Source: Mesosutterella faecium (GTDB taxonomy: Bacteria; Pseudomonadota; Gammaproteobacteria; Burkholderiales; Burkholderiaceae_F). Taken from it: a stretch of 64,000 nt of DNA. A program made the position numbers and the translations under genes. Positions 5,178-43,480 of the stretch are shown here, in pieces (position 1 is the stretch's first letter; every line of letters begins with the position of its first letter). The DNA lies in contig NZ_JAKZJU020000001.1 of NCBI RefSeq assembly GCF_022809315.2, forward strand, positions 2,268,979-2,332,978, read 5' to 3'. Below the pieces are notes generated by a model, which saw nothing but the letters and a program-made list of their open reading frames with translations, did not search any database and was not told the DNA's origin.

Positions 5178-6960
5178 CCGTAACGGTTTCAATTTAGGGA
5201 CGCGATAATCGCGTCCCTTATCTTTCAGAATTTTCCCTAAAGCCCGCACCACCGGGCGTTTACCTCTATTTCTCAAACCTTGAAATTCGGGCCTGTATAT
5301 GTCATAATTGGTATACCTAATAGGGTGGTTATAAAGACAGCTATGGCTACGACGGAAAAACCGGATTATGTGATTCAATTTCAGAAGTCCAAACCCAGGC
5401 AGACCGAGATCAAGAAAATCGGCGGCCGCTGGTATCTTTATGAGCGCTTCAGCAAATACGATCCGGAAATAAAGCGCAGCTGGAAAATATCCGGGAAATG
5501 CCTCGGAGCCATCACTCCCGAGGGGCTGGTGAAAACCACCCGCAGGCTCGCCGAGCCCAAGCCCGCTGTTCTGAACGATGTGGTTGCCGTGGGCAATGAA
5601 GTGTATTTCTGGGAAAACACGGCTCCCATGCGTCGGCGCCTCAGGAAATATTTTCCTGATCTTTGGCGGCAGATTTACACGGCCGTGTATGTCCGTTCGG
5701 CGCTGGATCCCCGATTCCGAAGGCTGCAGTCTCACTACGAAAACAGCCTGTTCTCCTACCTCTGCCCGGGCCTGTCCTTCCAAAGGCCGTGCATCAGGGA
5801 TCTGCTCGAGCAGCTGGGCAGGAGCCGGGAGGCCATCCGAGGCTACATGCGGGAAGACCTTGAAGATCGGGAAGCCTTCATCCTTTTTGACGGGCACAGA
5901 ATCCTGTCTGCCTCCCAGACCATGACGACGGCTGAACTGGGCTACGACTCCAAGTGCAGATTCAAGCCCCAGATCAATCTGGTGTACGTATTTTCGTTGG
6001 GCGAAGACACCGGGATGCCTTTGTATTACAAGCAGTATGCCGGGAGCACCCCCGACGTGAGCTGCTTCTCCGACCTGCTGCGCGAGACCTCGATGAACGG
6101 GAAAAACTACACCGTCATCGCCGACAAAGGCTTTGCGAGCGAGGATGGCTTCTGCCAGCTTGAGGACGATGGCCTGAAGTACCTGCTGCCCCTCAGGCGG
6201 AACTGCGCGGCAGCGGCGGATCTGATACCTGAGTCGCCCAGAGGCTACCAGAAGGGCTTCACGTATCACTCCCGCTCGATTCAGTACAGTTCCTTTGACT
6301 GCCAGGACAAAGCTTCACGGCTCCACATCTATTTCGATCCAGAGCTGTACTCCGATGAGATGGCTACGGCCACCGCCCGAATGGAAGCACAGAACCGCAC
6401 CGTCGGACAGGCTCGCCAGGCGGAAGAAAACAGAAGAAAAAAGGGCAAGGGAAGACTGACCGACGCCGAACTGGAGGCTCTCAGGCCTGTGGAGCTCTCT
6501 GACATTCATGACGCCCATCCGGCGATGGGCGTCATCATCATTAAGACCAATCGGCTGGACCTGGAAGGCGAGGCTGTTTATTACATCTACAAGCAGCGCC
6601 AGAACATCGAGCAGTTCTTCAAAACCTATTCAGAGACCCTGGACTTCGAAGCCTCGTATATGCGCGGAGCAACCCAGGAGGAAGCGTGGCTGTTCCTGAA
6701 CCATCTTGCGGCCGGCTTCTGCGTCAAAACCATCGAGGACATTTATTCCATCGGCGAAGGCAAAAACATTTCGTACAAGGACCTGACCAGCGGCCTGGAG
6801 AAAATCAGGGCGGCAAGATTGGGAAAATCGTGGCAGATGCCGCCCATTAAGAGGTCTACTGCCAGGCTGTGCGAAAAACTTGGCATTAACGTCACTGCCG
6901 AGAAAATCGAAAAATTGGTCGCCGGAACTGAGTAACGTACCTAAATTGAAACCGTTACGG
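5178..6960 (+). mobile_element. IS4-superfamily insertion sequence with TIRs and 6-bp target duplication
   Basis: Both ends carry the same 25-bp terminal inverted repeat with one mismatch. It begins CCGTAACGGTTTCAATTTAG at 5178 and its complement ends at 6960. The flanks carry TTTGAT on both sides (5172-5177 and 6961-6966), a 6-bp target-site duplication. The element is 1783 bp and holds one transposase gene. Just inside the left end is an 11-bp-arm palindrome (5196-5218, AGGGACGCGAT with its complement), probably a structure that blocks read-through transcription into the transposase. The insertion lies at the last codons of an aldo/keto reductase gene. Confidence 0.9.
5343..6935 (+). CDS. 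DDE transposase of the IS4 superfamily
   Basis: About 530 residues from the ATG at 5343; an in-frame TTG at 5280 would add 21 residues. The DDE catalytic core is suggested by ILFDGHRI, VIADKGFAS and the C-terminal YIYKQRQNIEQFFK stretch. The last fits the Y-R-E-K signature (Y, two to three residues, R, E, K) of IS4-type transposases. A Lys/Arg-rich insertion lies near the middle (ENRRKKGKGR). The frame is uninterrupted and both inverted repeats are intact, so the element looks recently mobile. I did not resolve the exact family within the superfamily (IS1634-like or another). Confidence 0.88.
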   Translation: MATTEKPDYVIQFQKSKPRQTEIKKIGGRWYLYERFSKYDPEIKRSWKISGKCLGAITPEGLVKTTRRLAEPKPAVLNDVVAVGNEVYFWENTAPMRRRLRKYFPDLWRQIYTAVYVRSALDPRFRRLQSHYENSLFSYLCPGLSFQRPCIRDLLEQLGRSREAIRGYMREDLEDREAFILFDGHRILSASQTMTTAELGYDSKCRFKPQINLVYVFSLGEDTGMPLYYKQYAGSTPDVSCFSDLLRETSMNGKNYTVIADKGFASEDGFCQLEDDGLKYLLPLRRNCAAAADLIPESPRGYQKGFTYHSRSIQYSSFDCQDKASRLHIYFDPELYSDEMATATARMEAQNRTVGQARQAEENRRKKGKGRLTDAELEALRPVELSDIHDAHPAMGVIIIKTNRLDLEGEAVYYIYKQRQNIEQFFKTYSETLDFEASYMRGATQEEAWLFLNHLAAGFCVKTIEDIYSIGEGKNISYKDLTSGLEKIRAARLGKSWQMPPIKRSTARLCEKLGINVTAEKIEKLVAGTE

Positions 6961-7800
6961 TTTGATTTCATTCACAAACCACTCGACCGTCTCCGGGTCC
7001 CGGTGGTCGAAGAAGACGCTGCGGCCGGTGTCGAGCCGCCCGATCGAGTCCATGTCGGCCTCGGTCAACTCGAAGCCGAAGACGTCGAGGTTCTCGCGCA
7101 TGCGCTCCGGACTCGAGGACTTCGGGATCGCGGCGATGCCGCGCTACAGCTGCCAGCGCAGCATCACCTGGGCCGTGCTGCGGCCGGGCCGCCCCGCGAT
7201 TGAGTGAAGAGTCTCGTTTTCAAACAGACCGCCGCGGCTCTCGCCGAACGGAGCCCAGGACTCGTGGACGACGCCGAGCCGCCGCATCAGCTCGCGGGCC
7301 CCGCGCTGCTGAAAGAGGGGATGGGTCTCCACCTGGTTCACCATGGGCGGGATCTCGGCGAACCCGCACAGGTCGGCGAGCCGGTCGGGATAGAATTTGG
7401 AGACCCCGGCCGCGCGCACGGCGCCCTCGCGGTAGAGCGCCTCAAGCGCCCGCCAGGCGCCGTAATGGTCCCCGTAGGGCTGGTGCAGGAGCACGAGGTC
7501 GAGGTAGCCCGTGCGCAGCTTATCGAGCGACCTGAGCACCGCGGCGCGGGTTTCCTGCTCGCCGTAGAAGCCGGGCCAGACCTTGGTGGTGAGAAAAAGC
7601 TCGCCGCGGGGAATGCCGGAAGCCGCGGCCGCCGCCCCCACGCCTTCCTCGTTGCGGTAGCTCTGCGCGGTGTCAAGGTGCCTGTAGCCCGCCTCGAGCG
7701 CTTCGGAGACGAGACGGGCGGTCTCGCGCGGGGGGATCTGGCAGACCCCGTAGCCGATCATCGGCATCCGGGCGCCGGTCCTGAGGGTGACATAGTCCAT
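6955..7800 (-). pseudogene. Aldo/keto reductase with in-frame amber codon, clipped by an IS
   Basis: The frame from ATG 7800 encodes an AKR (HLDTAQSYR, TTKVWPGFYG, LVLLHQPYGD, GVSKFYPD) and stops at a TAG at 7144-7146, directly after VMLRWQL. The same frame continues past the stop with RGIAAIPKS, ERMRENLDVFGFEL and the usual family C-terminus, ending in FVNEIK at the IS boundary. The residue at the TAG is usually Gln in this family, so CAG to TAG is the likely change. The IS replaces only the last four codons. The gene encodes 218 residues instead of about 280 and lacks the NADP-binding C-terminus. Confidence 0.85.
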
Positions 7801-7971: not shown

Positions 7972-8793
7972 ATGCTCGACTACGAAGAAATGCGCTATCT
8001 GGTGGAGTTCTCGCGGCTGGGAACCCTCTCGGAGGTGGCGAAGCGCTGCCACATCTCCCAGCCCACGGTGACCCGGGCCATGAAGAAGGCCGAGGAGGAG
8101 ATCGGGGTGAGCCTCTTCGAGCACCGCAGGAACCGGCTTGACTTGAACGAGAACGGGCGGCTCGCGGCCTCGGAGCTGCAGCAGCTGCTGCAGCAGTGGG
8201 ACGAGGCCTACCGCAGGGTGCGCGAGTTCGACCGCTCGCACCGCGTGATTTCGATCGGCTCGTGCGCCGCGGTCCAGATCCCGGGGCTCGTCGCGCGGCT
8301 CTCCCAGGCCGCGCCCGACGCGCCGATCAGCACCGAGACCGCCGCGGTGCCCGATCTCACCGCGGGGCTCGAGGCCGGCCGCTACCGGCTCGTGGTCCTC
8401 CCCTTCCGCCCGAAGGACCCGGAGCTCTACAGCGAAAAGGTGGGCAGCGAGCAGCTCATGCTTCTCGTGCCCCCGGAGCACCGCCTCGCGGGCCGCGCTT
8501 CCGTTGCGCTCAAAGACCTCGAAGGCGAGACGATGCTGCTCTACACGCACATCGGCTTCTGGTCGGAGCTCGTGCGGAACAAAATGCCCGGAACCCGCTT
8601 CCTGCTGCAGAGCGACCGCAGGACGCTGCTCGACCTCATCGCGCGCACCGGGCTGCCCGCCTTCACCACCGACATCGCCAACCTCTCCCGCAGCCTCGAA
8701 GGCCGGGTCTGCGTCCCTTTTTCCGACCCGGAGGCCCGGGCCGACTACTACCTCGTGTGCCGCAGGGACTACTGGCGGCAGCTGCGCCTCTAA
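7972..8793 (+). CDS. LysR-family transcriptional regulator
   Basis: A 273-residue protein with an N-terminal winged helix-turn-helix (about residues 3-62, EVAKRCHISQPTVTRAMKKAEEEIG) and a periplasmic-binding-like effector domain after it. It is somewhat shorter than the usual 290-310 residues. It is divergent from the aldo/keto reductase pseudogene across a 171-bp AT-rich region, so that gene was probably its target. If so, the regulator may now have no functional local target. No good ribosome-binding site is visible before the ATG. The inducer is unknown. Confidence 0.88.
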   Translation: MLDYEEMRYLVEFSRLGTLSEVAKRCHISQPTVTRAMKKAEEEIGVSLFEHRRNRLDLNENGRLAASELQQLLQQWDEAYRRVREFDRSHRVISIGSCAAVQIPGLVARLSQAAPDAPISTETAAVPDLTAGLEAGRYRLVVLPFRPKDPELYSEKVGSEQLMLLVPPEHRLAGRASVALKDLEGETMLLYTHIGFWSELVRNKMPGTRFLLQSDRRTLLDLIARTGLPAFTTDIANLSRSLEGRVCVPFSDPEARADYYLVCRRDYWRQLRL

Positions 8794-8948
8794 GGTCCGG
8801 GACCGGCCCGGTGGCCCTAAGGGTTATCACTGATTTTCGGCCCCCGGCCCACATCTTGTTGTCCCGGCGAGGCACCCCCAAAAAGGTTTTCCTTTCTGAA
8901 CAAAGGCTTTGGCGGGGCCTGCCGAAATTCTGACCACAAGCCTTAAAA

Positions 8949-8964
8949 ACACTAGAACTAGTTT
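8949..8964. promoter_or_regulatory. NrdR box 1
   Basis: The 16-bp site ACACTAGAACTAGTTT resembles the palindromic NrdR consensus (ACACWATATATWGTGT). NrdR is the ATP/dATP-sensing repressor of ribonucleotide reductase genes. This box starts 31 bp before a second one, about three helical turns, which is the normal tandem spacing, and lies upstream of nrdD. Confidence 0.75.
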
Positions 8965-8979
8965 TATGAATGTCTCCGA

Positions 8980-8995
8980 GCACTAAACCTAGTCA
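8980..8995. promoter_or_regulatory. NrdR box 2
   Basis: The site GCACTAAACCTAGTCA is a second match to the NrdR palindrome, in phase with box 1. A TGTAAAAT sequence directly downstream (about 8999-9006) is a plausible extended -10, so repressor bound here would block RNA polymerase. Confidence 0.7.
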
Positions 8996-9031
8996 GCGTG
9001 TAAAATCCATTTCCCTGCGCGGGCGGCGGAG

Positions 9032-9073
9032 CCTGAGGAAGCGCCCTCCTCCTAAGGAGGGCGCTTCCTCAGG
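9032..9073 (+). promoter_or_regulatory. Perfect 19-bp stem-loop in the nrdD leader
   Basis: The arms CCTGAGGAAGCGCCCTCCT (9032-9050) and their exact complement (9055-9073) enclose a 4-nt loop. The hairpin lies between the presumed promoter (-10 near 9000) and the nrdD start at 9236, so it would form in the mRNA leader. No run of T follows, so it is not an ordinary intrinsic terminator. It could stabilise the message or bind a regulator; this is not established. Confidence 0.7.
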
Positions 9074-9235
9074 GCCCATCACCCCGCGTTAAAAATTTCG
9101 TCCGTGCGGAAAAATCCCCCGGAAGCATCCCCTCGCGCCTGGCAGCGGGAGCGGTCCCGGAGCCCGGAAAGAGCGGCCTCAGGCGGGCCGCCCCGAGGGG
9201 CTGCGGAAAAATCATTGTTGAGGCAGAGAGAAAAA

Positions 9236-11404
9236 ATGGTACAGGTCATCAAGAAAGACGGTTCCCTCGAGAACTTCATCCCCTCGAAAATCTCGGTCGC
9301 GGCCAACAAGGCCGCCTTCCGCTGCGACAAGAAGTTCACCGAGCAGCAGCAGGCGCAGATCGTCGAGGCGGTGCTGAAGAAGCTCGGCGGCCGGGACAAG
9401 ACCACCGTCTCCGACCTGCACGAAATCGTGATCGCGACCCTGGGGTCGCTCGGCTATGTCGACGTCGCGCAGTCCTACGCCGAATACCGCTACTACAAGA
9501 CCCAGTACGCGAAGACCTTCGAGAAGCTACGCCAGGACGCCGACGACGTGCTGCACCTGGGCGACCGCGAGAACGCGAACTTCGACTCCGCGCTCGTCTC
9601 GACGAAGGGCTCGCTCATCAAGGGCTACCTCACGAAGTCCCTCTACAAGCAGTTCTACCTCTCCAAGCAGGAGAAGGCCCTGACCGAGCGCGGCGACATC
9701 TACATCCACGACCTCCGGGACATGATCCTGGGGAGCGTGAACTGCTGCCTCTTTGACATCGGCCGCGTCCTCAAGGGGGGCTTCGAGATGTCGAACGTCG
9801 AGTACACGGAGCCGAAGTCGGTGCTCTCGGCGCTGCAGGTCGTGGGCGACCTCACGCTCGTGGCGACCGCGCAGCAGTTCGGGGGCTTTACGCTGCCCGA
9901 GCTCGACAAGGTGCTGCTGCCCTACACGCTCAAGACCTACCGGAGCGCCCTCGAACGCTACAGGGGGCTGGGGCTCTCCGAGGACAAGTGCCTCGAGCAG
10001 GCCGAGAAGGACACCCGCCGCGAGCTCGAGCAGGGCTTCCAGAGCCTCGAGCTCAAGCTGAACACCGTGCCTTCGAGCCGCGGCGACTTCGCCTTCACGA
10101 CCGTCACCTTCGGGCAGTGGTCGATCACGAAGACCACGCACGAGGAGCGCAAGTGGCTCGAGGCGATCGACGAGACGCTGCTGCGCACGCGCCGCAACGG
10201 CCACGGCAAAAACCACCAGCCGGTGGTCTTCCCGAAGCTGGTCTACCTCTACGACGAGAACCAGGTGAAGAACGACGACTCGGGCTACAGCCAGAAGCTC
10301 TACGAGGAGGGCATCCGCACCTCCGCGCAGTGCATGTACCCCGACTGGCTCTCGCTCTCCTCGAAGTACGGCACCGTCTCGCACGAGTTCCAGACCCACG
10401 GCGAGATCATCAGCCCGATGGGCTGCCGCGCCTACCTCTCGCCCTGGGCGAACGAGAAGGGCGAGTACATCTCGGTCGGCCGCTGCAACATCGGCGCGGT
10501 CTCGATCAACTTCCCGCTCATCATCAAGTACACGCAGGTGAACTACCCCGACTCCTGGCGCGAGCGCTTCTGGGTCGAGCTCGACCAGAGGCTCGAGGTG
10601 ATCCGCGCGTTCCTGAAGAAGCGCTATGACGTGATCCGCCACCAGAAGTGCTCCTCGAACCCGCTCGCCTTCACGCAGGGCGGCTTCTACGAGGGCACGA
10701 AGGACCCGGACGACGAGGTGGGAGACCTCGTGCGCTACATGACCGCCTCCTTCGGCGTGGCCGCGCTCGACGAGTCCACGTACCTGTGGACCGGCCGCCG
10801 CCTGGTCGAGGACGAGGGGCGCTTTGGCAGCGAGATCCTCAACCACTTGAAGGCCAAGATCGCGCAGTTCAAGAAGGAGGACGGCTACCTCTACGCGATC
10901 TACGGGACTCCGGCCGAGAGCTACAGCGGCACGCAGGCGCGCCAGTACGACGCCTACTGCAGGAGCGTCGGGGTCGACAATGTCTTTGCGCACACGAAGC
11001 ACTACAACAAGGACTACTTCTCGAACTCCTTCCACGCGAACGTGACCGAGGACATCACCCCCTTTGAGAAGCAGGACGCGGAGTTCCGCAACTTCCACCT
11101 CTGCGAGGGCGGGCACATCCAGTACGTGCGCCTCGACAACCCCGAGAACACCGAGGCGGTGAAGGCGGTGATCGAGCGCGGCATGGAAGACGGCTTCTAC
11201 CAGGGCGTGAACTTCGACGCGGCGTACTGCCACGACTGCGGGACGCACTCGACCAACGTGCTCAACGTCTGCCCGCACTGCGGCAGCCGCAACATCACGG
11301 TGATCTCGCGCGTGTGCGGCTACCTCGGCTACACGAACGTGAACGGGAAGTCGCGCATGAACGACTCGAAGCGGCTCGAGATCTCGCAGCGCGTCTCGAT
11401 GTGA
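9236..11404 (+). CDS. nrdD: Anaerobic ribonucleoside-triphosphate reductase
   Basis: A 722-residue class III ribonucleotide reductase that makes dNTPs without oxygen using a glycyl radical. It has an N-terminal ATP-cone (about residues 1-90, starting VQVIKKDGSLENF), the catalytic barrel, a C-terminal zinc site (C665, C668, C679, C682) and the radical site RVCGYLGY, with Gly695 as the radical residue. I chose the ATG at 9236 because the ATP-cone begins there. The in-frame 44 codons upstream look like leader, and a purine-rich GAGGCAGAGAG precedes the ATG. It is followed 31 bp later by nrdG and preceded by tandem NrdR boxes. Confidence 0.97.
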   Translation: MVQVIKKDGSLENFIPSKISVAANKAAFRCDKKFTEQQQAQIVEAVLKKLGGRDKTTVSDLHEIVIATLGSLGYVDVAQSYAEYRYYKTQYAKTFEKLRQDADDVLHLGDRENANFDSALVSTKGSLIKGYLTKSLYKQFYLSKQEKALTERGDIYIHDLRDMILGSVNCCLFDIGRVLKGGFEMSNVEYTEPKSVLSALQVVGDLTLVATAQQFGGFTLPELDKVLLPYTLKTYRSALERYRGLGLSEDKCLEQAEKDTRRELEQGFQSLELKLNTVPSSRGDFAFTTVTFGQWSITKTTHEERKWLEAIDETLLRTRRNGHGKNHQPVVFPKLVYLYDENQVKNDDSGYSQKLYEEGIRTSAQCMYPDWLSLSSKYGTVSHEFQTHGEIISPMGCRAYLSPWANEKGEYISVGRCNIGAVSINFPLIIKYTQVNYPDSWRERFWVELDQRLEVIRAFLKKRYDVIRHQKCSSNPLAFTQGGFYEGTKDPDDEVGDLVRYMTASFGVAALDESTYLWTGRRLVEDEGRFGSEILNHLKAKIAQFKKEDGYLYAIYGTPAESYSGTQARQYDAYCRSVGVDNVFAHTKHYNKDYFSNSFHANVTEDITPFEKQDAEFRNFHLCEGGHIQYVRLDNPENTEAVKAVIERGMEDGFYQGVNFDAAYCHDCGTHSTNVLNVCPHCGSRNITVISRVCGYLGYTNVNGKSRMNDSKRLEISQRVSM

Positions 11405-31969: not shown

Positions 31970-33160
31970 ATGATTTCACGCCGGAAACTGCTTCAGATCG
32001 CGCTGGCCTCGCCGCTGGCCGCGGGCGGCGCCCCGGCCCTCGCGCAGCAGCGGGCCTTCACGCTCGCCTTCTGCGGCGACATCATGATGGGCTCCACGTT
32101 CCCGGGCGAGGCCCTGCCCGAGCACGACGGGCAGAAGCTCTTTGCCGACGCCGCGCCGGTCTTGCGCTCGGCCGACCTCGCCTTCGGGAATCTCGAGGGG
32201 ACGCTGCTCGAGGGCGGGGAAACGCAGAAGGTCCCCTCGCCCACGACCTACGCCTTCCGCACGCCCGTGCGCTACGCGCGGTATCTGAAGGAAGCCGGGT
32301 TCGACTTTCTGTCGCTCGCGAACAACCACGCGGGCGACTTCGGCGAGGAAGGCATGGACTCGACGCAGCGGTGCCTGCGCGAGCAGGGGATCGCCTTCGC
32401 GGGCATCCGGGGCCGCTGCGAATACGCCCTGATCGAAAGGGGCGGAGTGCGCTTCGGCGTGGCGGCCTTCGGGCACAACTCCTATACGCTCAGGCACGGC
32501 GACGAGGCCGAGGTCCGCCGGATTCTGGCCGCGCTGCGGCGCCGCGCCGACCTCATCGTCGTCTCCTTCCACGGGGGAGCCGAAGGCCGCGACCGGGCCC
32601 GGCTGCCCTACGGTGAAGAGATCTTTCTCAACGAGAAGCGCGGCAGCCTCAGGCAGTTCGCCCATCTGTGCGTCGACCTCGGGGCCGACGCCGTCTTCGG
32701 CCACGGCCCCCACGTTCCGAGGGCGGTCGAAGTCTACAAGGGGCGCTTCATCGCCTACAGCCTCGGCAACTTCTGCACCCCTTACATGGTGAGCCTCAAG
32801 GGCATCAGCGGGCTCGCCCCCGTGATCGAAATCCGGATGAGCGCCAGCGGCCGCTTCCTTTCAGGGCAGATTTACTCGTTCCGCCAGATCCGCGGCGTGG
32901 GCCCGAGGCTGGATCCCGGGCTCGGGGCCGCAAAGCTCATCAAAACCCTCTCCGAGGAGGACATCAGCCCGCGCTTTTTCACGATCGACGACTCGGGCAG
33001 GATCCTGCCCGCCGCAGCGGCGGCGCCTGCCCCGGCGCCCGTGCAGGCGCCCGCGGCCGAGCCCGCCGGAGGGCCCTCCGGAGAGAGCGCGGAGCCCGAG
33101 GATCCGAGGATCGGCGAGGACATCCTGATCGAAGAGCCGGCGCCCGAAGCCGCCCCCTGA
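31970..33160 (+). CDS. CapA-family (PGA_cap) exported metallophosphatase-like protein
   Basis: A 396-residue protein. It begins with a Tat-like signal (SRRKLLQIAL, cleavage near ALAQQ). The CapA metallophosphatase-like fold follows: FCGDIMMGS, FGNLEGTL, LANNHAGDFG, VVSFHGGAEG and FGHGPHVPRAVEVY, then YSLGNF. CapA was named for poly-gamma-glutamate capsule synthesis, but most relatives are of unknown role and no capsule genes are nearby. A long Ala/Pro-rich, acidic tail (about residues 345-396) is probably disordered. Confidence 0.83.
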   Translation: MISRRKLLQIALASPLAAGGAPALAQQRAFTLAFCGDIMMGSTFPGEALPEHDGQKLFADAAPVLRSADLAFGNLEGTLLEGGETQKVPSPTTYAFRTPVRYARYLKEAGFDFLSLANNHAGDFGEEGMDSTQRCLREQGIAFAGIRGRCEYALIERGGVRFGVAAFGHNSYTLRHGDEAEVRRILAALRRRADLIVVSFHGGAEGRDRARLPYGEEIFLNEKRGSLRQFAHLCVDLGADAVFGHGPHVPRAVEVYKGRFIAYSLGNFCTPYMVSLKGISGLAPVIEIRMSASGRFLSGQIYSFRQIRGVGPRLDPGLGAAKLIKTLSEEDISPRFFTIDDSGRILPAAAAAPAPAPVQAPAAEPAGGPSGESAEPEDPRIGEDILIEEPAPEAAP

Positions 33161-33203: not shown

Positions 33204-33223
33204 CGGCTAAAGCAGTTTAGCCG
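33204..33223. promoter_or_regulatory. Palindromic operator 1, upstream of the CRP/FNR-like regulator
   Basis: CGGCTAAA-GCAG-TTTAGCCG is a perfect 8-bp-arm inverted repeat. Its centre is 29.5 bp before a TTAATT hexamer (33243-33248) that can serve as -10. This puts the centre near -41.5, the class II activator position for CRP/FNR proteins. The regulator gene starts downstream, so autoregulation is likely. Confidence 0.7.
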
Positions 33224-33397
33224 CTTGCATCGGTGTTACCACTTAATTTCAAAGAACTAGGAGCCGGCGTCCGTAGACTCTTCTTTATAGGTTCATAAAC
33301 GACAGCGGCCTTCAGCCTGAGCCGAAGAGCCGCTTTGGGGAGTTGTTTTTTCCGGCCGGGGACGGTGTGAGAACGCCCGGGCCGAAGGAGGAACGCC

Positions 33398-34267
33398 GTG
33401 AGCAACAGAACGCTCGGCTGGTACGCCGCCATTGAGCGTCCGTTCGACCAGCCCTGGGATCTGGAGCACCCGGTGCCTGATCCCATCGTCCCCTGGATCA
33501 CCCACAGCCTGCACCCGAAGCTCTACAGCCTCATTGAAAAAATCGGGACGCCCAGAGCCCTGAAGGCCGAAGAGCCCCTGATCCAGCCCGGCGAACCCGT
33601 GAATCAGGTGATCGTCGTCGCTAAAGGAGTGACCGGCCGCGAAGTGGGGCAGATTTCAGGCGCCATCGCGATCTCGCCGCCGCGCCACATCGCCTGCGGC
33701 AACCTCAATTTCCTCACGTCCCTGCCCTGCATCGGCCGCTATTTCGCTCTTGTGGACTCGACGGTGATCCAGGTGCCGCAGAAGCTGCTCCGGGGCATCC
33801 TGCAAAATGACCGGGAGACCGCCTGGCTCTTCTCGGTCCAGGCCGAGCTGTGCACGCTCTCGGACCGGATGGGCTTTGCCATCTACACGATCCCGGTGGA
33901 AGACCGGCTGAAGGCGTTTTTCATCGCCTGGGCGCGCAACTACGGCCGCTTCGCGCAGGACGCCTCCGGCGCCGGATGGTGCGTCATGCCCTCCACCGTG
34001 CAGAGGAAGTACATCGCCTCGGTCGCCAACACCTCCCGCGTCTCGCTCGACAAAACGATGAGGGCCTGGAGGGAATCCGGGGCCTATGTCTCCCAGGGCT
34101 CCTCGATCTGCATGAAGACCTCGCTCCTCGAGCCGGTCTACCGCTGGATGTCCGACATGGAGGACAACGCCGAAATCCGGCGTCCGCCCACCTTCCTCGA
34201 GTTCATCAGGGACATTGAAGCCCGGCGGCAGGCCGCGGGCTTCAAGCCCGTTTCGCTCGGCTGGTAG
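33398..34267 (+). CDS. CRP/FNR-family transcriptional regulator
   Basis: A 289-residue regulator. A cyclic-nucleotide-binding-like beta-roll occupies about residues 50-135, followed by a dimerisation helix and a C-terminal HTH (about 205-235, VQRKYIASVANTSRVSLDKTMRAW). It lacks the N-terminal cysteine cluster of FNR, so the signal is unlikely to be oxygen through an Fe-S cluster. Start is a GTG at 33398 with AAGGAGG at good spacing. Matching palindromes lie upstream of this gene, the porin and the flavoprotein genes, suggesting it controls all three. The ligand is unknown. Confidence 0.8.
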   Translation: MSNRTLGWYAAIERPFDQPWDLEHPVPDPIVPWITHSLHPKLYSLIEKIGTPRALKAEEPLIQPGEPVNQVIVVAKGVTGREVGQISGAIAISPPRHIACGNLNFLTSLPCIGRYFALVDSTVIQVPQKLLRGILQNDRETAWLFSVQAELCTLSDRMGFAIYTIPVEDRLKAFFIAWARNYGRFAQDASGAGWCVMPSTVQRKYIASVANTSRVSLDKTMRAWRESGAYVSQGSSICMKTSLLEPVYRWMSDMEDNAEIRRPPTFLEFIRDIEARRQAAGFKPVSLGW

Positions 34268-34450
34268 GAGCCTGGACCCCCTTCTCCCCGGAAAGGCTGA
34301 AGGGGCCGCTGCCGCGGCCCGCGGGCAAAGTCTGCCCGTCCGAGAGGATGGAAAAGATGTTGCGTAATAACAACGCCAGCGGGGGCCATGAAATACGCCG
34401 CATTTTCAGCAATTTACAAAAATTTTCAGGGCGCGGCGGCTGATTCTGGC

Positions 34451-34470
34451 CGGCTAAACCGGTTTAGCTA
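34451..34470. promoter_or_regulatory. Palindromic operator 2, upstream of the porin
   Basis: GCTAAACCGGTTTAGC (34453-34468) is a perfect palindrome with the same half-site as operator 1. Its centre is again 29.5 bp before TTAATT (34490-34495). Confidence 0.7.
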
Positions 34471-34622
34471 CTCACTACAGGGTTATTGCTTAATTCTGAA
34501 GAATAATCATTCCCCCGCCCATACACTCGGACGTGAGGGGCGGAAAAACCTCCGCCCCTGCGAGTTTCAGAGGCTGGCGCGGTAACCGGCCGACTCGAAA
34601 ACACCTCAAGAGAGAGAAAAAC

Positions 34623-35762
34623 ATGAAAAGAAACCTGATCGCGGCCGCCCTGCTCAGCGGCTTTGCCGGCGCTGCCCTCGCGGCTCCTTCCGTGACCCTC
34701 TACGGGCTCATCGACACGAGTCTGAGCTACGTGCACACCCACTCCGACGTGAAGGGCGTGGACTCCACCGACACCTTCTCCATGGAAAACGGCCAGGAGT
34801 TCGGCTCCCGCTGGGGCCTGCGCGGCACGGAGCGCTTTGACAGCGGCGTGACCGTGGGCTTCACGCTCGAGTCCGGGTTCGAGTCCGACACCGGTCTGTC
34901 CGACACGAAGCAGAACGACCGCCTCTTCGGGCGCGAGGCCTCGCTGAGCGTTTCCGGCCGGTACGGCACGCTGTGGGCCGGGCGCCTGCCGATCTTCGGC
35001 AGCGTGCTGGGCGCGAACGGCCTGTTCCGCGCGATCGACCCGATCTTCGCGAACTACACCTCGGGGCTCGGCTCCGGATTTGCCACGGCTTCGAGCTGGA
35101 CGCGCGTCGACAACGCCCTGTCCTACCGCTCCCCGACCTTCGCGGGCTTCACGGGCTACGCGATGTACTCCTTCAAGAACGACGCCAAGGTGAACACCGC
35201 CTACGCCGAGAACAAGGCGGCCGTCGACCGCTACGGCTCTCTCGCCGTCCGCTACAAGGGCGACAACCTTGAGGCCGTGCTGGTTGCCGACACCACGCTC
35301 TGGGGCAATGCGACCTACGGCCACGCCGACGACGGCTGGACGGTCACCCTCGGCGGCAACTACAAGTTCAGCAACGGCCTCAAGCTGATCGCCTTCGGCC
35401 AGTACTTCGACAAGATGTTCCACAACGCCAACGCGCGCGCCGGCGTCGTGAGGAGCGGCCTCATGGCCTTCACCAACAACGCGGGCTACGGCCAGGTCGA
35501 CGGCTGGGGCGCGAGCCTCGGCGTGAACTATCCGCTCTTTGGCGGCACGGTCAAATTCGCGGTGAACTACCGCGACATGGACAACCAGACGGGCTACGAC
35601 TTCAACCGCTGGACGGTGGCCGGCGCCTATGACTACGAGCTCTCCAAGCGCACGAGCCTTTACGCCCTCGCCGGCTTCAGCCAGGAGAAGATCAAGAAGA
35701 ACGGCGAGAGCGTCAAGCCGAACGGCTGCCAGGCCACCGTCGGCCTGCTCCACCGCTTTTGA
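34623..35762 (+). CDS. Outer-membrane porin (Burkholderiales type)
   Basis: A 379-residue trimeric-porin-family protein with a signal peptide cleaved after ALA (about residue 20). The mature start is APSVTLYGLIDTSLSY, typical of beta- and gammaproteobacterial general porins, and the C-terminal residue is Phe, as needed for BAM recognition. Alternating beta-strand patterns run throughout. It probably gives passage to small anions such as carboxylates. I chose the ATG at 34623 because the signal peptide begins there. Confidence 0.93.
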   Translation: MKRNLIAAALLSGFAGAALAAPSVTLYGLIDTSLSYVHTHSDVKGVDSTDTFSMENGQEFGSRWGLRGTERFDSGVTVGFTLESGFESDTGLSDTKQNDRLFGREASLSVSGRYGTLWAGRLPIFGSVLGANGLFRAIDPIFANYTSGLGSGFATASSWTRVDNALSYRSPTFAGFTGYAMYSFKNDAKVNTAYAENKAAVDRYGSLAVRYKGDNLEAVLVADTTLWGNATYGHADDGWTVTLGGNYKFSNGLKLIAFGQYFDKMFHNANARAGVVRSGLMAFTNNAGYGQVDGWGASLGVNYPLFGGTVKFAVNYRDMDNQTGYDFNRWTVAGAYDYELSKRTSLYALAGFSQEKIKKNGESVKPNGCQATVGLLHRF

Positions 35763-35803
35763 GCGCCGGGGGCTCCTGCCTTCAGCGTTAACCCGCATTT
35801 AAT

Positions 35804-35823
35804 CGGCCTAAATGCTTAGCCGG
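35804..35823. promoter_or_regulatory. Palindromic operator 3, upstream of the flavoprotein reductase
   Basis: CTAA-ATGC-TTAG (35808-35819) extended by CGG/CCG is a weaker version of operators 1 and 2, with a half-site spacing 2 bp shorter. Its centre lies 29.5 bp before TAGAAT (35843-35848), a good -10. Confidence 0.5.
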
Positions 35824-35912
35824 ATAAACCGAAAGCACTAGATAGAATTTTCAATGAGTCAGGAGAAATTCTTCTTTTTCGGTATATCCGGCTATTTTTA
35901 AAGGACAAAAAA

Positions 35913-37448
35913 ATGGCTTCTCTTTCCCGTCGTCATTTCCTGGGCGGCGCCGCTGCGGGCGCCGTGACCGCCGGCCTCGCTGCCGTCTCGACCAGCGCTG
36001 CCGCGCTTTCCCCCAAGATGCCCCAGAAATGGGACGAAACCGTTGACTTCCTCGTGATCGGCACGGGCTTCGCCGGGCTGGGCGGCGCGCTCGAAGCGCA
36101 CCAGCAGGGCATCAAAAACGTGCTCGTCGTCGACAAGATGCCCACCGCCGGCGGCAACTCCATCATCAACGGCGGCGCTGTGGCCGCGGCCGGCACCGAC
36201 ATGCAGAAGGCGGCCGGCATCAAGGACAGCCCCGACCTCCTCTACAAGGACATCATGAAGGCGGGCGGCGGACTCTGCCACCCGGAGCTCGCCCGCCACA
36301 TCGCCGACAGCTCGGTTGAGAACTTCTACTGGCTGCGCGACAAGATCGGCGTCAAGTTCCAGGCCGTCACCTATCACGGCGGCCACTCCGTGAAGCGCTC
36401 CCACGCTGTGACGAGCCACCGCGGCGACGGCTTCATCCTGCCGATGCTCGCCAAGTGCAAGGAATACGGCATCCCGGTGCGGCTGCGCACCTTTGTCGAG
36501 GAAATCATCGAGGACGACCAGGGCCGCGTGGTCGGCGTCAAGGTCCGCGAGAAGTACCGCTTCCCCCGCGCGAACTCCGGCACCGTGAAGTACATCCGCT
36601 CCAACAAGGGGGTGCTGCTCGCCTCGGGCGGCTTCGCGCAGAACGTCACGATGCGCATGAGCCACGACCCGCGCCTCACCGCCGCCTTCACTTCCACGAA
36701 CCAGCCCGGCGCCACGGGCGAGGTAATTCAGGAGGCCCAGTTCCTCGGGGCGAACACCGTCCAGATGGACTGGATCCAGCTCGGGCCCTGGACCAGCCCG
36801 GACGAAAGCGGCTTCGGACTGTGCCCGCTCGTCACCGAGGCCACCGTGGGCTACGGCCCGATGATCGACCCCGCCACGGCCCGCCGCTTCGTGATGGAGA
36901 CCGGCAACCGCAAGGTGCGCGCCGACGCAATCGTCGCGATCGGGCACCCGGTCATCATGTACACCAATGAAAAGAACATCATGAATCAGGTGGTGAACCA
37001 CAACATGACCCCGGCCATGTTCGAGAAGGTCCAGGCCTCCGGCGTGGTGCACAAGTTCAACACCCTCAAGGAACTCGCGGCCTTCTACAAGGTCGACTAC
37101 AACGCCCTTATGAAGGAGAACGACAAGTTCAACTCCTACATGAAGGCGATGAAGGACCCGGAATTCAACTGCAAGTTCTTCAAGGACGGCGTCCCCAACG
37201 AGGAAGGCAAGGGCCCGTTCTACGGCTGGAGGCTCTGGCCGCGCGTCCACCACTGCATGGGCGGTCTCGAGATCAATAACAAGGCGCAGGTGCTCGACGC
37301 CCGCCACAACGTGATCCCCGGCCTCTATGCGGCAGGCGAGGCGACCGGCGGCGTGCACGGCATGGTGCGCCTCGGCACGGTCGCGGTGGCCGACTGCATC
37401 ATCTTCGGCCGCACCGCTGCCCGCACGGCTAAAGGCTACCAGGCCTGA
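35913..37448 (+). CDS. Tat-exported FAD-dependent fumarate reductase-like flavoprotein
   Basis: A 511-residue periplasmic flavoprotein. The Tat signal SRRHFLGG (residues 5-12) is followed by FAD-binding GTGFAG (50-55). The FAD/substrate segments are TARRFVMET, HHCMGGLEI and, near the C-terminus, GEATGGVHGMVRLG. These resemble soluble flavocytochrome-c fumarate and urocanate reductases, but the haem domain is absent. The tetrahaem cytochrome gene 255 bp downstream could be the electron donor. The usual GGxHGxNRLG is GGVHGMVRLG, so the substrate may differ from fumarate. Confidence 0.87.
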   Translation: MASLSRRHFLGGAAAGAVTAGLAAVSTSAAALSPKMPQKWDETVDFLVIGTGFAGLGGALEAHQQGIKNVLVVDKMPTAGGNSIINGGAVAAAGTDMQKAAGIKDSPDLLYKDIMKAGGGLCHPELARHIADSSVENFYWLRDKIGVKFQAVTYHGGHSVKRSHAVTSHRGDGFILPMLAKCKEYGIPVRLRTFVEEIIEDDQGRVVGVKVREKYRFPRANSGTVKYIRSNKGVLLASGGFAQNVTMRMSHDPRLTAAFTSTNQPGATGEVIQEAQFLGANTVQMDWIQLGPWTSPDESGFGLCPLVTEATVGYGPMIDPATARRFVMETGNRKVRADAIVAIGHPVIMYTNEKNIMNQVVNHNMTPAMFEKVQASGVVHKFNTLKELAAFYKVDYNALMKENDKFNSYMKAMKDPEFNCKFFKDGVPNEEGKGPFYGWRLWPRVHHCMGGLEINNKAQVLDARHNVIPGLYAAGEATGGVHGMVRLGTVAVADCIIFGRTAARTAKGYQA

Positions 37449-37703: not shown

Positions 37704-38054
37704 ATGAAGTTCTCAGCAAAACTCGCTATAGCCTCCATGCTCTTAGCCTTCGCCGCTTCCAGCGCCTTTGCCGCAGGCGGCAATTTCGGCGCCGACAAGC
37801 ACATCAAGGCCGGGCTGAAGTGCGAATCCTGCCACGGACCGGACAAAAAGATTGAAACTCCCGAAAAGGAGCAGTGCATCAAGTGCCACGATCCGAAGAA
37901 ACTCGCGGAAAAGACCAAGAACGTCAAGCCCACCAATCCGCATGACTCTCCGCACTACCATCAGGACCTCGAGTGCACGCTGTGCCATCTGCAGCATGAA
38001 AAGCCCGAGATCTACTGCAATCAGTGCCATAAGTTCGATTTCAAGATGCCCTGA
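37704..38054 (+). CDS. Small periplasmic tetrahaem cytochrome c
   Basis: A 116-residue protein with a signal peptide (about residues 1-23, ending AFAAGG) and exactly four CxxCH haem-attachment motifs: CESCH, CIKCH, CTLCH and CNQCH. Several extra His residues can give bis-His ligation. It resembles Shewanella small tetrahaem cytochromes and the haem domain of flavocytochrome c. It likely passes electrons from a quinol oxidase to the Tat flavoprotein. AAGGAGATGG precedes the ATG. Confidence 0.92.
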   Translation: MKFSAKLAIASMLLAFAASSAFAAGGNFGADKHIKAGLKCESCHGPDKKIETPEKEQCIKCHDPKKLAEKTKNVKPTNPHDSPHYHQDLECTLCHLQHEKPEIYCNQCHKFDFKMP

Positions 38055-43314: not shown

Positions 43315-43480
43315 AACATCGTCTCCGGAAGCTGTTCGGGAAACTCCCCCGAAGTAAGCGGCCTGGATGGCGCACCAGCATCTAAAAGTTCAATTCGTTC
43401 ATTCTGCTCAAAATGAAGAGCCGTTGGCAGATCCAAAGGATCCTAACTAACCCTTAGACATTTTTTAACGGGCAGAAAAC

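Follow-up and report, generated by a model that had tools for sequence, protein, structure and literature searches.

The FNR box reads TTGAT-N4-ATCAA, and class II FNR promoters of the nirB/nrfA type carry an extra NarL/NarP site upstream. NtcA recognizes TGTA-N8-TACA. CprK/RdhK of Desulfitobacterium, a CRP/FNR-superfamily protein of halorespiration, is a local one-component regulator beside the respiratory reductase under its control, and the terminal electron acceptor is its activating ligand. Its dehalobox consists of two 5-bp half-sites with a 4-bp spacer, and the sequence TTAATacacATTAA is centred 41.5 bp upstream of the start (PMC7062800, PMC2610375).

The locus described here lies in a window of 64 kb of Mesosutterella faecium DNA, by which the whole stretch analysed is meant. 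A local one-component regulator beside a respiratory reductase, as already known from CprK/RdhK, is found here as well, and so is the 5-4-5 geometry of the palindromes. What differs from CprK is the half-site (CCYAA or CTAAA here and TTAAT there, the boxes of the locus not reading TTAAT-N4-ATTAA), the fixed-distance partner X at 24 bp, and the type of reductase, a flavoprotein reductase with cytochrome and porin taking the place of a reductive dehalogenase. With class II FNR promoters of the nirB/nrfA type the locus shares the N4 spacer, the probable class II position and a second site upstream of the activator site, but it has another half-site, its boxes do not read TTGAT-N4-ATCAA, the regulator has no N-terminal cysteine cluster for a 4Fe-4S centre, and X fails to match the consensus of paired NarL heptamers. 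The boxes here are CTAAA-N4-TTTAG or CCTAA-N4-TTAGC; the first-pass annotation was right that the half-site differs in its bases from those of FNR and CRP, and a reading as FNR or CRP boxes was rejected for these differing bases. Among solved structures, the profile of the regulator family matches NtcA best, although weakly (profile positions 55-245, E 2e-5), and the GCTA-N8-TAGC of sites 1 and 2 stands in the same register as its site, whereas bases and role are different. A search of the open-access literature found no paper on the regulator, on such operators in Sutterellaceae or on X.

Three palindromes and a second element

The features of the locus are the following.
33204..33223, no strand: palindrome P of site 1, CGGCTAAA-GCAG-TTTAGCCG, upstream of the regulator gene
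33232..33243, no strand: X of site 1, GGTGTTACCACT, centre +24 from P; Mesosutterella porci version AGGGTTACTACC
33274..33279, + strand: TAGACT, also present in M. porci, putative alternative -10 of the regulator promoter, +60.5 from P
33398..34267, + strand: CRP/FNR-superfamily regulator, 289 aa, GTG start, proposed activator
34453..34468, no strand: palindrome P of site 2, GCTAAACCGGTTTAGC (GCTAAA-CCGG-TTTAGC), upstream of the porin gene
34479..34490, no strand: X of site 2, AGGGTTATTGCT, centre +24 from P
34522..34527, + strand: TACACT, putative alternative -10 of the porin promoter, +61.5 from P
34623..35762, + strand: porin (PF13609)
35784..35795, no strand: X of site 3, AGCGTTAACCCG, centre -24 from P
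35806..35821, no strand: palindrome P of site 3, GCCTAA-ATGC-TTAGCC, upstream of the flavoprotein gene, matching the family consensus
35843..35848, + strand: TAGAAT at +29.5 from P, candidate -10 of the flavoprotein promoter (in relatives mostly at +30.5)
35913..37448, + strand: flavocytochrome-c-type reductase (TIGR01813) with the twin-arginine leader SRRHFLG (from the translation)
37704..38054, + strand: small multihaem cytochrome c3 (PF14537), which belongs to the conserved module

The three palindromes and the distance of 29.5 bp from each centre to a -10-like hexamer, as claimed in the first-pass annotation, were all recovered on reading the sequence. Site 1 is centred at 33213.5 with TTAATT beginning at 33243, site 2 at 34460.5 with TTAATT beginning at 34490, and site 3, the inner part of which is CTAA-ATGC-TTAG (35808-35819), at 35813.5 with TAGAAT beginning at 35843. 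The CTAA of site 3 is placed one base per half-site further in than that of sites 1 and 2; the three sites align by register (C7, A4 and A3 from the centre) and not by the letters CTAA. The 40 bases 3' of sites 1 and 2 are alike (23/40, composition-shuffle P 5e-5), while those of site 3 are identical to them at only 8/40 and 11/40 positions. As the flanks of sites 1 and 2 agree mutually and not with site 3, the three sites represent non-equivalent promoters. Terminators were considered for the sites and rejected, none of the three palindromes being among the four terminator-like hits.

The second element X (AGGGTTAACCCT), overlooked in the first-pass annotation, is centred 24 bp from the palindrome, upstream of P at site 3 and downstream of it at sites 1 and 2. 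With a matrix trained on seven sites of one other genus only (majority sequence AGGGTTAACCCT), +24 or -24 ranked first of 116 distances for sites 1, 2, 3 and site 1 of M. porci. The distance of 24 bp also ranked first in 5/10 further sites from outside the training genus, a count without L055, which had been picked because an earlier P-X pair search had shown it. Locus L063 is an empty row of zeros in the X-reading table. When X was represented by a simple majority 12-mer built on 11 reductase sites (AGGGTAAACCCT), 24 bp was not the best distance for site 1. In 666 kb, 26 P-X pairs were counted at 24 bp, compared with 0-12 (mean 2.6) at each of 34 control distances. For this count the P rule and the 8/12 threshold for X were chosen with knowledge of the window, and X had been read from roughly a dozen of the 26 sites; training X on one genus removed the circularity of the pair search. 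Within the window, sites 1-3 are the only P-X pairs at 24 bp. At L055 a P-X unit also precedes a molybdopterin reductase gene, which adjoins a regulator of the same family. Taken alone, X shows no enrichment in this genome (3 and 2 versus 4 and 6), and it is also found before genes without obvious link to respiration (L135, L143).

The exact sequence GCTAAA-N4-TTTAGC occurs in two places in the genome of 2,606,253 bases, both at this locus, and in one place among 66 other genomes of the family (G007), and its backwards control is absent from this genome but has 27 places in the 66 others. A frequency of about one copy in every few genomes is thus nothing unusual, in contrast to two copies 1.25 kb apart at one gene set. 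When up to two mismatches are allowed, this genome has 32 places versus 62 for the backwards control, and a search of the window with three mismatches was unremarkable (four matches, shuffle mean 1.69). CCYAA-N4-TTRGG is not enriched genome-wide here (4 places versus 4 for the backwards control), and the four perfect places elsewhere in the genome have no X alongside (at most 4/12). Over 67 genomes ACCYAA-N4-TTRGGT has 16 places versus 10 for its backwards control, P alone not being enriched, and six of the 16 are located about 90-170 bp before the flavoprotein orthologue (G037, G043, G051, G058, G061 and G063).

Conservation at the reductase promoters of Sutterellaceae

A scan of relatives for the GGCTAAA-N4-TTTAGCC proposed in the first-pass annotation showed no conservation of that motif as such: the other four genomes of the genus lack the exact 16-bp core, M. 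porci retaining site 1 with one change. Conserved in the same register, at the same place and with the same module in Sutterellaceae is a related operator, CCYAA-N4-TTRGG. In this family the regulator, the Tat flavoprotein, the cytochrome c3 and the porin recur together. For quantification, 18 promoters of flavoprotein orthologues (63-77% identity) in regulator-bearing loci of up to 16 kb were used, including the window and three close pairs and leaving out L063 and L080 as truncated. CCNAA-N4-TTNGG was present with at most one mismatch in 15/18 (1.8 expected) and perfect in 9/18 (0.12 expected). The match of L060, which lies 15 bp before the start codon, is counted among these hits and is probably due to chance; L053 and L064 have no P at the reductase. 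With regard to a CprK-like placement at -41.5, the distance to the predicted -10 is 29.5 at site 3, and TANNNT starts at +30.5 bp in 8/14 and at +31.5 in 2/14 of the relatives' sites.

In a P profile built without the window, site 3 ranks fourth in 64 kb, and the scores are poor for site 1 (rank 367) and site 2 (rank 185) among about 64,000 positions. An 82-column profile of 14 sites was run over 127,836 positions, the close pairs L052 and L090 being left out of the anchored profiles. Site 3 came fifth; site 1 came second when read on the minus strand but 436th on the plus strand, where site 2 was 20,420th. By the palindrome columns alone site 3 was first on the minus strand and 89th on the plus strand, and by the flank columns alone only 622nd. 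Site 3, described as the weaker one, is the one that fits the family consensus CCNAA-N4-TTNGG, sites 1 and 2 being a same-register variant. The idea that site 3 is a degraded copy of the other two was rejected, the flanks being unrelated and the consensus matched.

Nine reductase orthologues outside regulator loci were covered by a scripted scan. Two had a one-mismatch P, with TANNNT absent 20-45 bp from both, and seven had no P. The reductase of L117, likewise outside regulator loci and absent from the scripted nine (its alignment starts at residue 29), has a perfect P, found by genome search, with no good X (6/12). At L118 a one-mismatch P with X (8/12 on both sides) is located before a cytochrome gene. 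P with at most one mismatch occurs at the reductase in 14/17 regulator loci versus 3/10 others (Fisher P 0.013; P 0.0008 with a stricter table), a contrast which is only supportive because some of the others are internal to operons.

A proposed two-part operator and its alternatives

The reading preferred here, to which a probability of roughly 0.6 is given, takes the sites as two-part P-X operators of the adjacent CRP/FNR-superfamily regulator, with X read by a second factor. It starts from the observed sites and spacings, their recurrence in relatives and the gene linkage; a CRP/FNR-type regulator gene does adjoin the probable operators, as the first-pass annotation had it. P would read C-Y-N-A-A-N4-T-T-N-R-G and, together with an X near AGGGTTAACCCT centred 24 bp away, would form one operator. 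A CprK-like dimer of the local regulator, probably loaded with an electron acceptor or a related small molecule, would bind P. At the reductase promoter this dimer would sit beside RNA polymerase in class II position, centred at about -41.5 to -42.5 from the predicted start, with X upstream at about -66 as the probable site of another respiratory regulator of wider distribution. The unit is reversed in front of the regulator and porin genes, P being upstream and X downstream, which would yield autoregulation and co-control of the outer-membrane pore. The output, for which we infer activation rather than repression, would be a periplasmic module for respiration that consists of the Tat flavoprotein reductase, the cytochrome c3 and the porin.

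A position near -41.5 had been claimed for all three promoters. For the reductase promoter, the spacing of which is conserved, the class II position is well supported by the sequences compared, and for the regulator and porin promoters it is doubtful. The hexamer TTAATT matches TATAAT at 3/6 positions and overlaps X at sites 1 and 2, and TAGACT at 60.5 and TACACT at 61.5, each matching at 4/6, are better -10 candidates. With these two as -10 hexamers sites 1 and 2 may act as class I sites, P lying near -72 and X near -48, a possibility put at somewhat less than an even chance. TAGACT is retained in M. porci and is a -10 candidate in several promoters of the family, but finding TANNNT within a base of a chosen offset is no rare event, and CTTAATT is common to sites 1 and 2 at the same offset, as expected of a class II -10. 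With TTAATT as the -10, the X elements of sites 1 and 2 would span about -23 to -12. Such an X over the core promoter, in a unit reversed relative to site 3, could repress regulator and porin by negative autoregulatory operators while site 3 activates the reductase; this is rather improbable, a porin that serves this pathway being expected to increase in step with the reductase.

P and X could also both be sites of the local regulator, two dimers binding cooperatively side by side 24 bp apart and X being degenerate or differently oriented. A distance of 24 bp corresponds to about one CRP-type footprint, lattice-like steps of 24 bp occur (X-P-X at L055, P-X-P at L066), and some loci have tandem pairs of regulator genes (L053, L059, L081, L086 and L090). 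The half-site of X (AGGG-N4-CCCT) is unlike that of P, however, and an X-like pair stands before the gene of a membrane fumarate-reductase-type subunit (this protein was checked for L137 only) in G025, G011 and G054, none of which belongs to the genomes in which the regulator was found; two dimers of one regulator appear unlikely. Chance or structural palindromes (terminators, repeats) without regulatory meaning would agree with the chance-level result of the loose pattern search within the window, with the lack of enrichment of P alone and X alone in the genome, and with a search for standard sigma-70 promoters on the + strand which found none. Given that both exact genome copies of the core of sites 1 and 2 are at this locus, that the sites recur at the reductases of relatives and that the distance to X is fixed, this explanation is very improbable.

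The two-part operator might be part of a two-input code throughout Sutterellaceae, a tentative extension held to be a little less probable than an even bet. Local sensors of the CRP/FNR type that have diverged from one another, each adjoining a flavoprotein or molybdopterin reductase of its own, would all read CYNAA-N4-TTNRG locked 24 bp from a common X. X would be the site of a second, global regulator, which would also serve the membrane fumarate reductase, and the unit would be bidirectional and drive divergent or tandem promoters. The P-X unit would be a CRP/FNR-type operator with a fixed-distance partner able to face either way. For most such flavoprotein reductases of Sutterellaceae we know of no substrate or control. 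A readable operator would let regulators be paired with reductases from sequence, would allow reporter screens for the acceptor sensed by each regulator, and would open the way to the second regulator reading X.

The regulator and reductase proteins

The window regulator matches the cNMP-binding domain model PF00027 with E 0.0014 and 19 bits, under the gathering score of 27.5, and 10/20 of its relatives give E values of 1 or lower (lowest 4.8e-8). Together with the NtcA match these lines, weak alone, are consistent with a sensor domain of the cNMP-binding type. HTH_Crp_2 is matched below its cut-off at residues 196-234 (E 0.0094), and by 4/20 relatives at E up to 1. The translation has no cysteine in its first 99 residues and thus no FNR-type N-terminal ligand set for an iron-sulphur centre. 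In an alignment of 44 recognition helices an arginine is found in the window and its closest relatives L051/L052 (SRVSLDK, SRLSIDR), the remaining rows having other residues, often serine. Half-site position 8 is G in the window and mostly A in relatives; as L060 has G8 without the arginine, no base-residue code is claimed.

The reductase scores 446.4 bits against TIGR01813 (cut-off 285.45) and 225.2 bits against PF00890 (FAD_binding_2, cut-off 20.4), and with both domain models above cut-off it is assigned by sequence to the flavocytochrome c reductases, the family of urocanate reductase UrdA and fumarate reductase FccA. In an alignment with FccA the positions of its catalytic residues Arg402, His504, Arg544, Thr377 and Glu378 are retained. 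The position of His365 of FccA is glycine here and tyrosine in UrdA, and, in difference to UrdA and FccA, the haem protein is separate and small. For these two reasons the substrate is probably neither fumarate nor urocanate. Among solved relatives the nearest is urocanate reductase (6t85, E 2e-72), and 1qjd matches with E 6e-65. Sutterellaceae genomes with the module carry several flavoprotein reductases of the same kind.

Genes of the module and their occurrence in relatives

The features of the window are:
33204-33223: site 1, palindrome upstream of the regulator gene
33398-34267: regulator, probably of the CRP/FNR superfamily
34453-34468: site 2, palindrome upstream of the porin gene
35808-35819: site 3, palindrome upstream of the Tat flavoprotein reductase gene
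35913-37448: flavoprotein reductase

From sequence, the assignments of porin, flavoprotein (TIGR01813) and cytochrome c3 are firm. No Pfam model matches the regulator at E 0.001. At a looser threshold it gives weak matches to the models for a cNMP-binding domain and a Crp-type HTH, and when 20 of its relatives were made into a profile and compared with solved structures, NtcA (E 2e-5) and CRP (E 0.002) were matched, so that it is probably a divergent member of the CRP/FNR superfamily. The nearest solved relatives of the flavoprotein are urocanate reductase and fumarate reductase. Upon alignment to FccA the catalytic positions were found to be kept except for His365, which is replaced by glycine (FccA residue numbering), and the substrate is likely to be neither fumarate nor urocanate. 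The same genome holds four more relatives of the reductase at E below 1e-100. Just upstream of the module, at 31970-33160, lies a PGA_cap protein (PF09587), whose only NCBIfam match, to the lasso-peptide tryptophan epimerase MslH, is far under the cut-off (94.5 of 700 bits).

A regulator match at E 0.001 was obtained in 30 of 120 genomes, the window's own counted, the weakest of these matches resembling other Crp-type proteins. In 40 loci around the better matches, reductase orthologues (63-77% identity), cytochrome and porin are found near the regulator in many cases, not in all, and the genes are arranged divergently or in tandem. A genome-contig scan with the regulator, which may omit the genome of the window and others very close to it, yielded a locus of Mesosutterella porci as its sole match. 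DNA identity to the window is 94 and 95% over two of the three aligned flanking blocks and 87% over the third, which places the window in Mesosutterella or very close to it. The equivalent of window positions ~33694-36290 is gone in M. porci (locus L050, about 6000-7445), a deletion running between two copies of CGCCACATCGCC which takes away the regulator's end, the porin and residues 1-127 of the reductase; the regulator remnant is additionally frameshifted. The cytochrome c3 gene is retained with a full-length alignment at 98% identity, and site 1 is still there, differing at one of its 20 positions.

A palindrome with a second element at 24 bp

By sequence comparison the sites of the window belong to a putative two-part operator which recurs in the family, and we regard this finding as real. 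The known kind here would be a local CRP/FNR-type activator beside a respiratory reductase, of which the two-part operator would be a new variant. The first-pass annotation had described the three palindromes (P) as a like-spaced set, each centred 29.5 bp before a -10-like hexamer (TTAATT at sites 1 and 2, TAGAAT at site 3). Palindromes and distances are all present on reading of the sequence and the set is real, but the class II activator position near -41.5 which had been deduced from it is well supported by the sequence for one of the three sites, the reductase's.

GCTAAA-N4-TTTAGC occurs at two places in the 2,606,253-base genome, both at this locus, and at one place across 66 other genomes of the family; its backwards control (the pattern reversed) gave 0 and 27 places, respectively. 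This rarity is not visible in a window-only search allowing three mismatches (four matches versus a shuffle mean of 1.69), and a looser genome search with up to two mismatches gave 32 places versus 62 for the control. The expected conservation upstream of orthologues was found in altered form: the exact palindrome is confined to that one place in the 66 genomes, but a related sequence, CC-N-AA-N4-TT-N-GG, stands at reductase promoters. Among 18 of these at regulator loci, which take in the window and three close pairs, 15 carry it within one mismatch (1.8 expected from dinucleotide shuffles) and nine perfectly (0.12 expected). The hexamer TANNNT starts at +30.5 from the P centre in 8 of 14 sites of the relatives and at +31.5 in two. 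In 67 whole genomes ACCYAA-N4-TTRGGT was found at 16 places versus 10 for the backwards control, six of the 16 lying ~90-170 bp before a reductase orthologue (G037, G043, G051, G058, G061 and G063). The place in G058, found by the genome search, is locus L117, with TAGAGT at +30.5 from P by hand count.

Counted outward from the centre, the relatives read A3 A4 Y5 C6 C7, sites 1 and 2 read A3 A4 A5 T6 C7 on both sides, and site 3 reads A3 A4 T5 C6 C7 on one side with G7 on the other. Judged by this register, sites 1 and 2 are a variant of the relatives' P, and their core is found as ACTAAA-ACAG-TTTAGT at the reductase promoter of locus L066. A common description would be CYNAA-N4-TTNRG, from which site 3 departs at one position. 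Site 3 had been considered the weaker copy, a view which is contradicted by a profile of 11 relatives built without the window, ranking it fourth in 64 kb; site 1 is 367th and site 2 185th in the same ranking. In an AT-rich, intergenic-looking stretch at 2605-2638 of the window, the family P profile gives two strong single half-sites, centred at 2615.5 and 2627.5.

When the relatives were anchored on P, a further conserved block emerged, resembling the palindromic 12-mer AGGGTTAACCCT and named X. The centres of X and P are 24 bp apart, with a mean of 8.0 of 12 matches at -24 versus 2.8 over all distances (18 rows, one empty); among the 17 filled rows, -24 is the best distance in 13 (two tied). 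In the window X is found at +24 for site 1 (8/12), +24 for site 2 (9/12) and -24 for site 3 (10/12), scores reached by shuffled surroundings in 0.5%, 0.1% and 0 of 5,000 cases. Pairs of P within one mismatch and X with at least 8/12 were counted in 665,834 bases (the window, L051-L090 and L117-L126), giving 26 at 24 bp and 0 to 12, on average 2.6, at 34 other distances (14-23 and 26-49 bp), with the maximum of 12 at 23 bp. By our placement, 22 of these 26 pairs fall in promoter regions of the modules and four elsewhere; the 64-kb window contributes exactly three pairs, namely sites 1, 2 and 3. L117 has no good X beside P. Neither the four perfect CCYAA-N4-TTRGG places elsewhere in this genome (maximum 4/12) nor the ten near matches of GCTAAA-N4-TTTAGC passing the P test (13 loci examined, of 30 others; maximum 6/12) have an X. 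Single AGGGTTA matches at 43448 and 8820 of the window have no palindrome pair at 24 bp; one of them lies ~130 bp before the start of a minus-strand 1444-aa ORF.

X was first read with the window in view, and a check was trained on seven sites of one other genus (g10; majority AGGGTTAACCCT). Among 116 distances this matrix ranked +24 highest at sites 1 and 2 and at site 1 of M. porci, and -24 highest at site 3. At ten further sites outside the training genus -24 came first in five, second in three, and third and fourth in one each; locus L055 was excluded from this tally because it had been chosen for its X. A counter-result came from AGGGTAAACCCT, the plain majority 12-mer of 11 reductase promoters, for which 24 bp was the best distance at sites 2 and 3 but not at site 1 (7/12, another place having 8). 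The motif-pattern controls and the genus-trained check pull confidence in opposite directions.

Promoter geometry and the proposed reader of X

Reductase promoters have the order X, P, -10. In the window the promoters of regulator and porin read P, X, gene, as does the regulator side of the divergent locus L072. P and X are each near-symmetric, so that one P-X unit could serve either direction. At site 3 the distance from P to the -10 hexamer fits class II activation, but at sites 1 and 2 TTAATT at +29.5 is a poor -10 which overlaps X; better hexamers are TAGACT at +60.5 (site 1) and TACACT at +61.5 (site 2). The reductase promoter distance resembles that of the CprK dehalobox, centred 41.5 bp before the start according to PMC7062800; dehalobox geometry is also treated in PMC2610375. 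At L055 a regulator of the same family is located beside a molybdopterin oxidoreductase, with X-P-X (8113-8172) ~120 bp before its gene (8262-10466), which by its layout is the same operator with another reductase type.

P and X may be occupied by two adjacent dimers of the local regulator. Against this stand G025, G011 and G054, three genomes outside the set in which the regulator search matched; in them two X-like sites 53 bp apart precede an apparent fumarate reductase membrane-subunit gene. Such pairs, near-perfect AGGGTTAACCC(T/C), are at 1501/1554 of L137 and at 1448/1501 of both L138 and L139, and the protein following the L137 pair, the one checked, is fumarate reductase/succinate dehydrogenase membrane-subunit-like (PF01127). 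Because these pairs occur outside the regulator matches, a second, more widespread regulator is favoured as the reader of X. As a counterweight to this second regulator, X-like sites are also found at L143, before a sodium:alanine symporter, and at L135, before a haemolysin-III-type gene, and taken by itself X shows no enrichment in this genome (3 and 2 places versus 4 and 6 for the control).

Further arrangements of these elements were seen. L066 contains a P-X-P array in 24-bp steps (6789.5, 6813.5, 6837.5) upstream of the reductase, between reductase and regulator. In the window's own genome AGGGTTTTCCCT (L133, 1501) lies ~360 bp upstream of a gene for a flavoprotein of the fumarate reductase type (PF00890). 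L134 (G000:C1:1031707) carries TAGCGTTTACCCTA, an X pattern which within one mismatch is also present in G001, G003 and G004 of the same genus.
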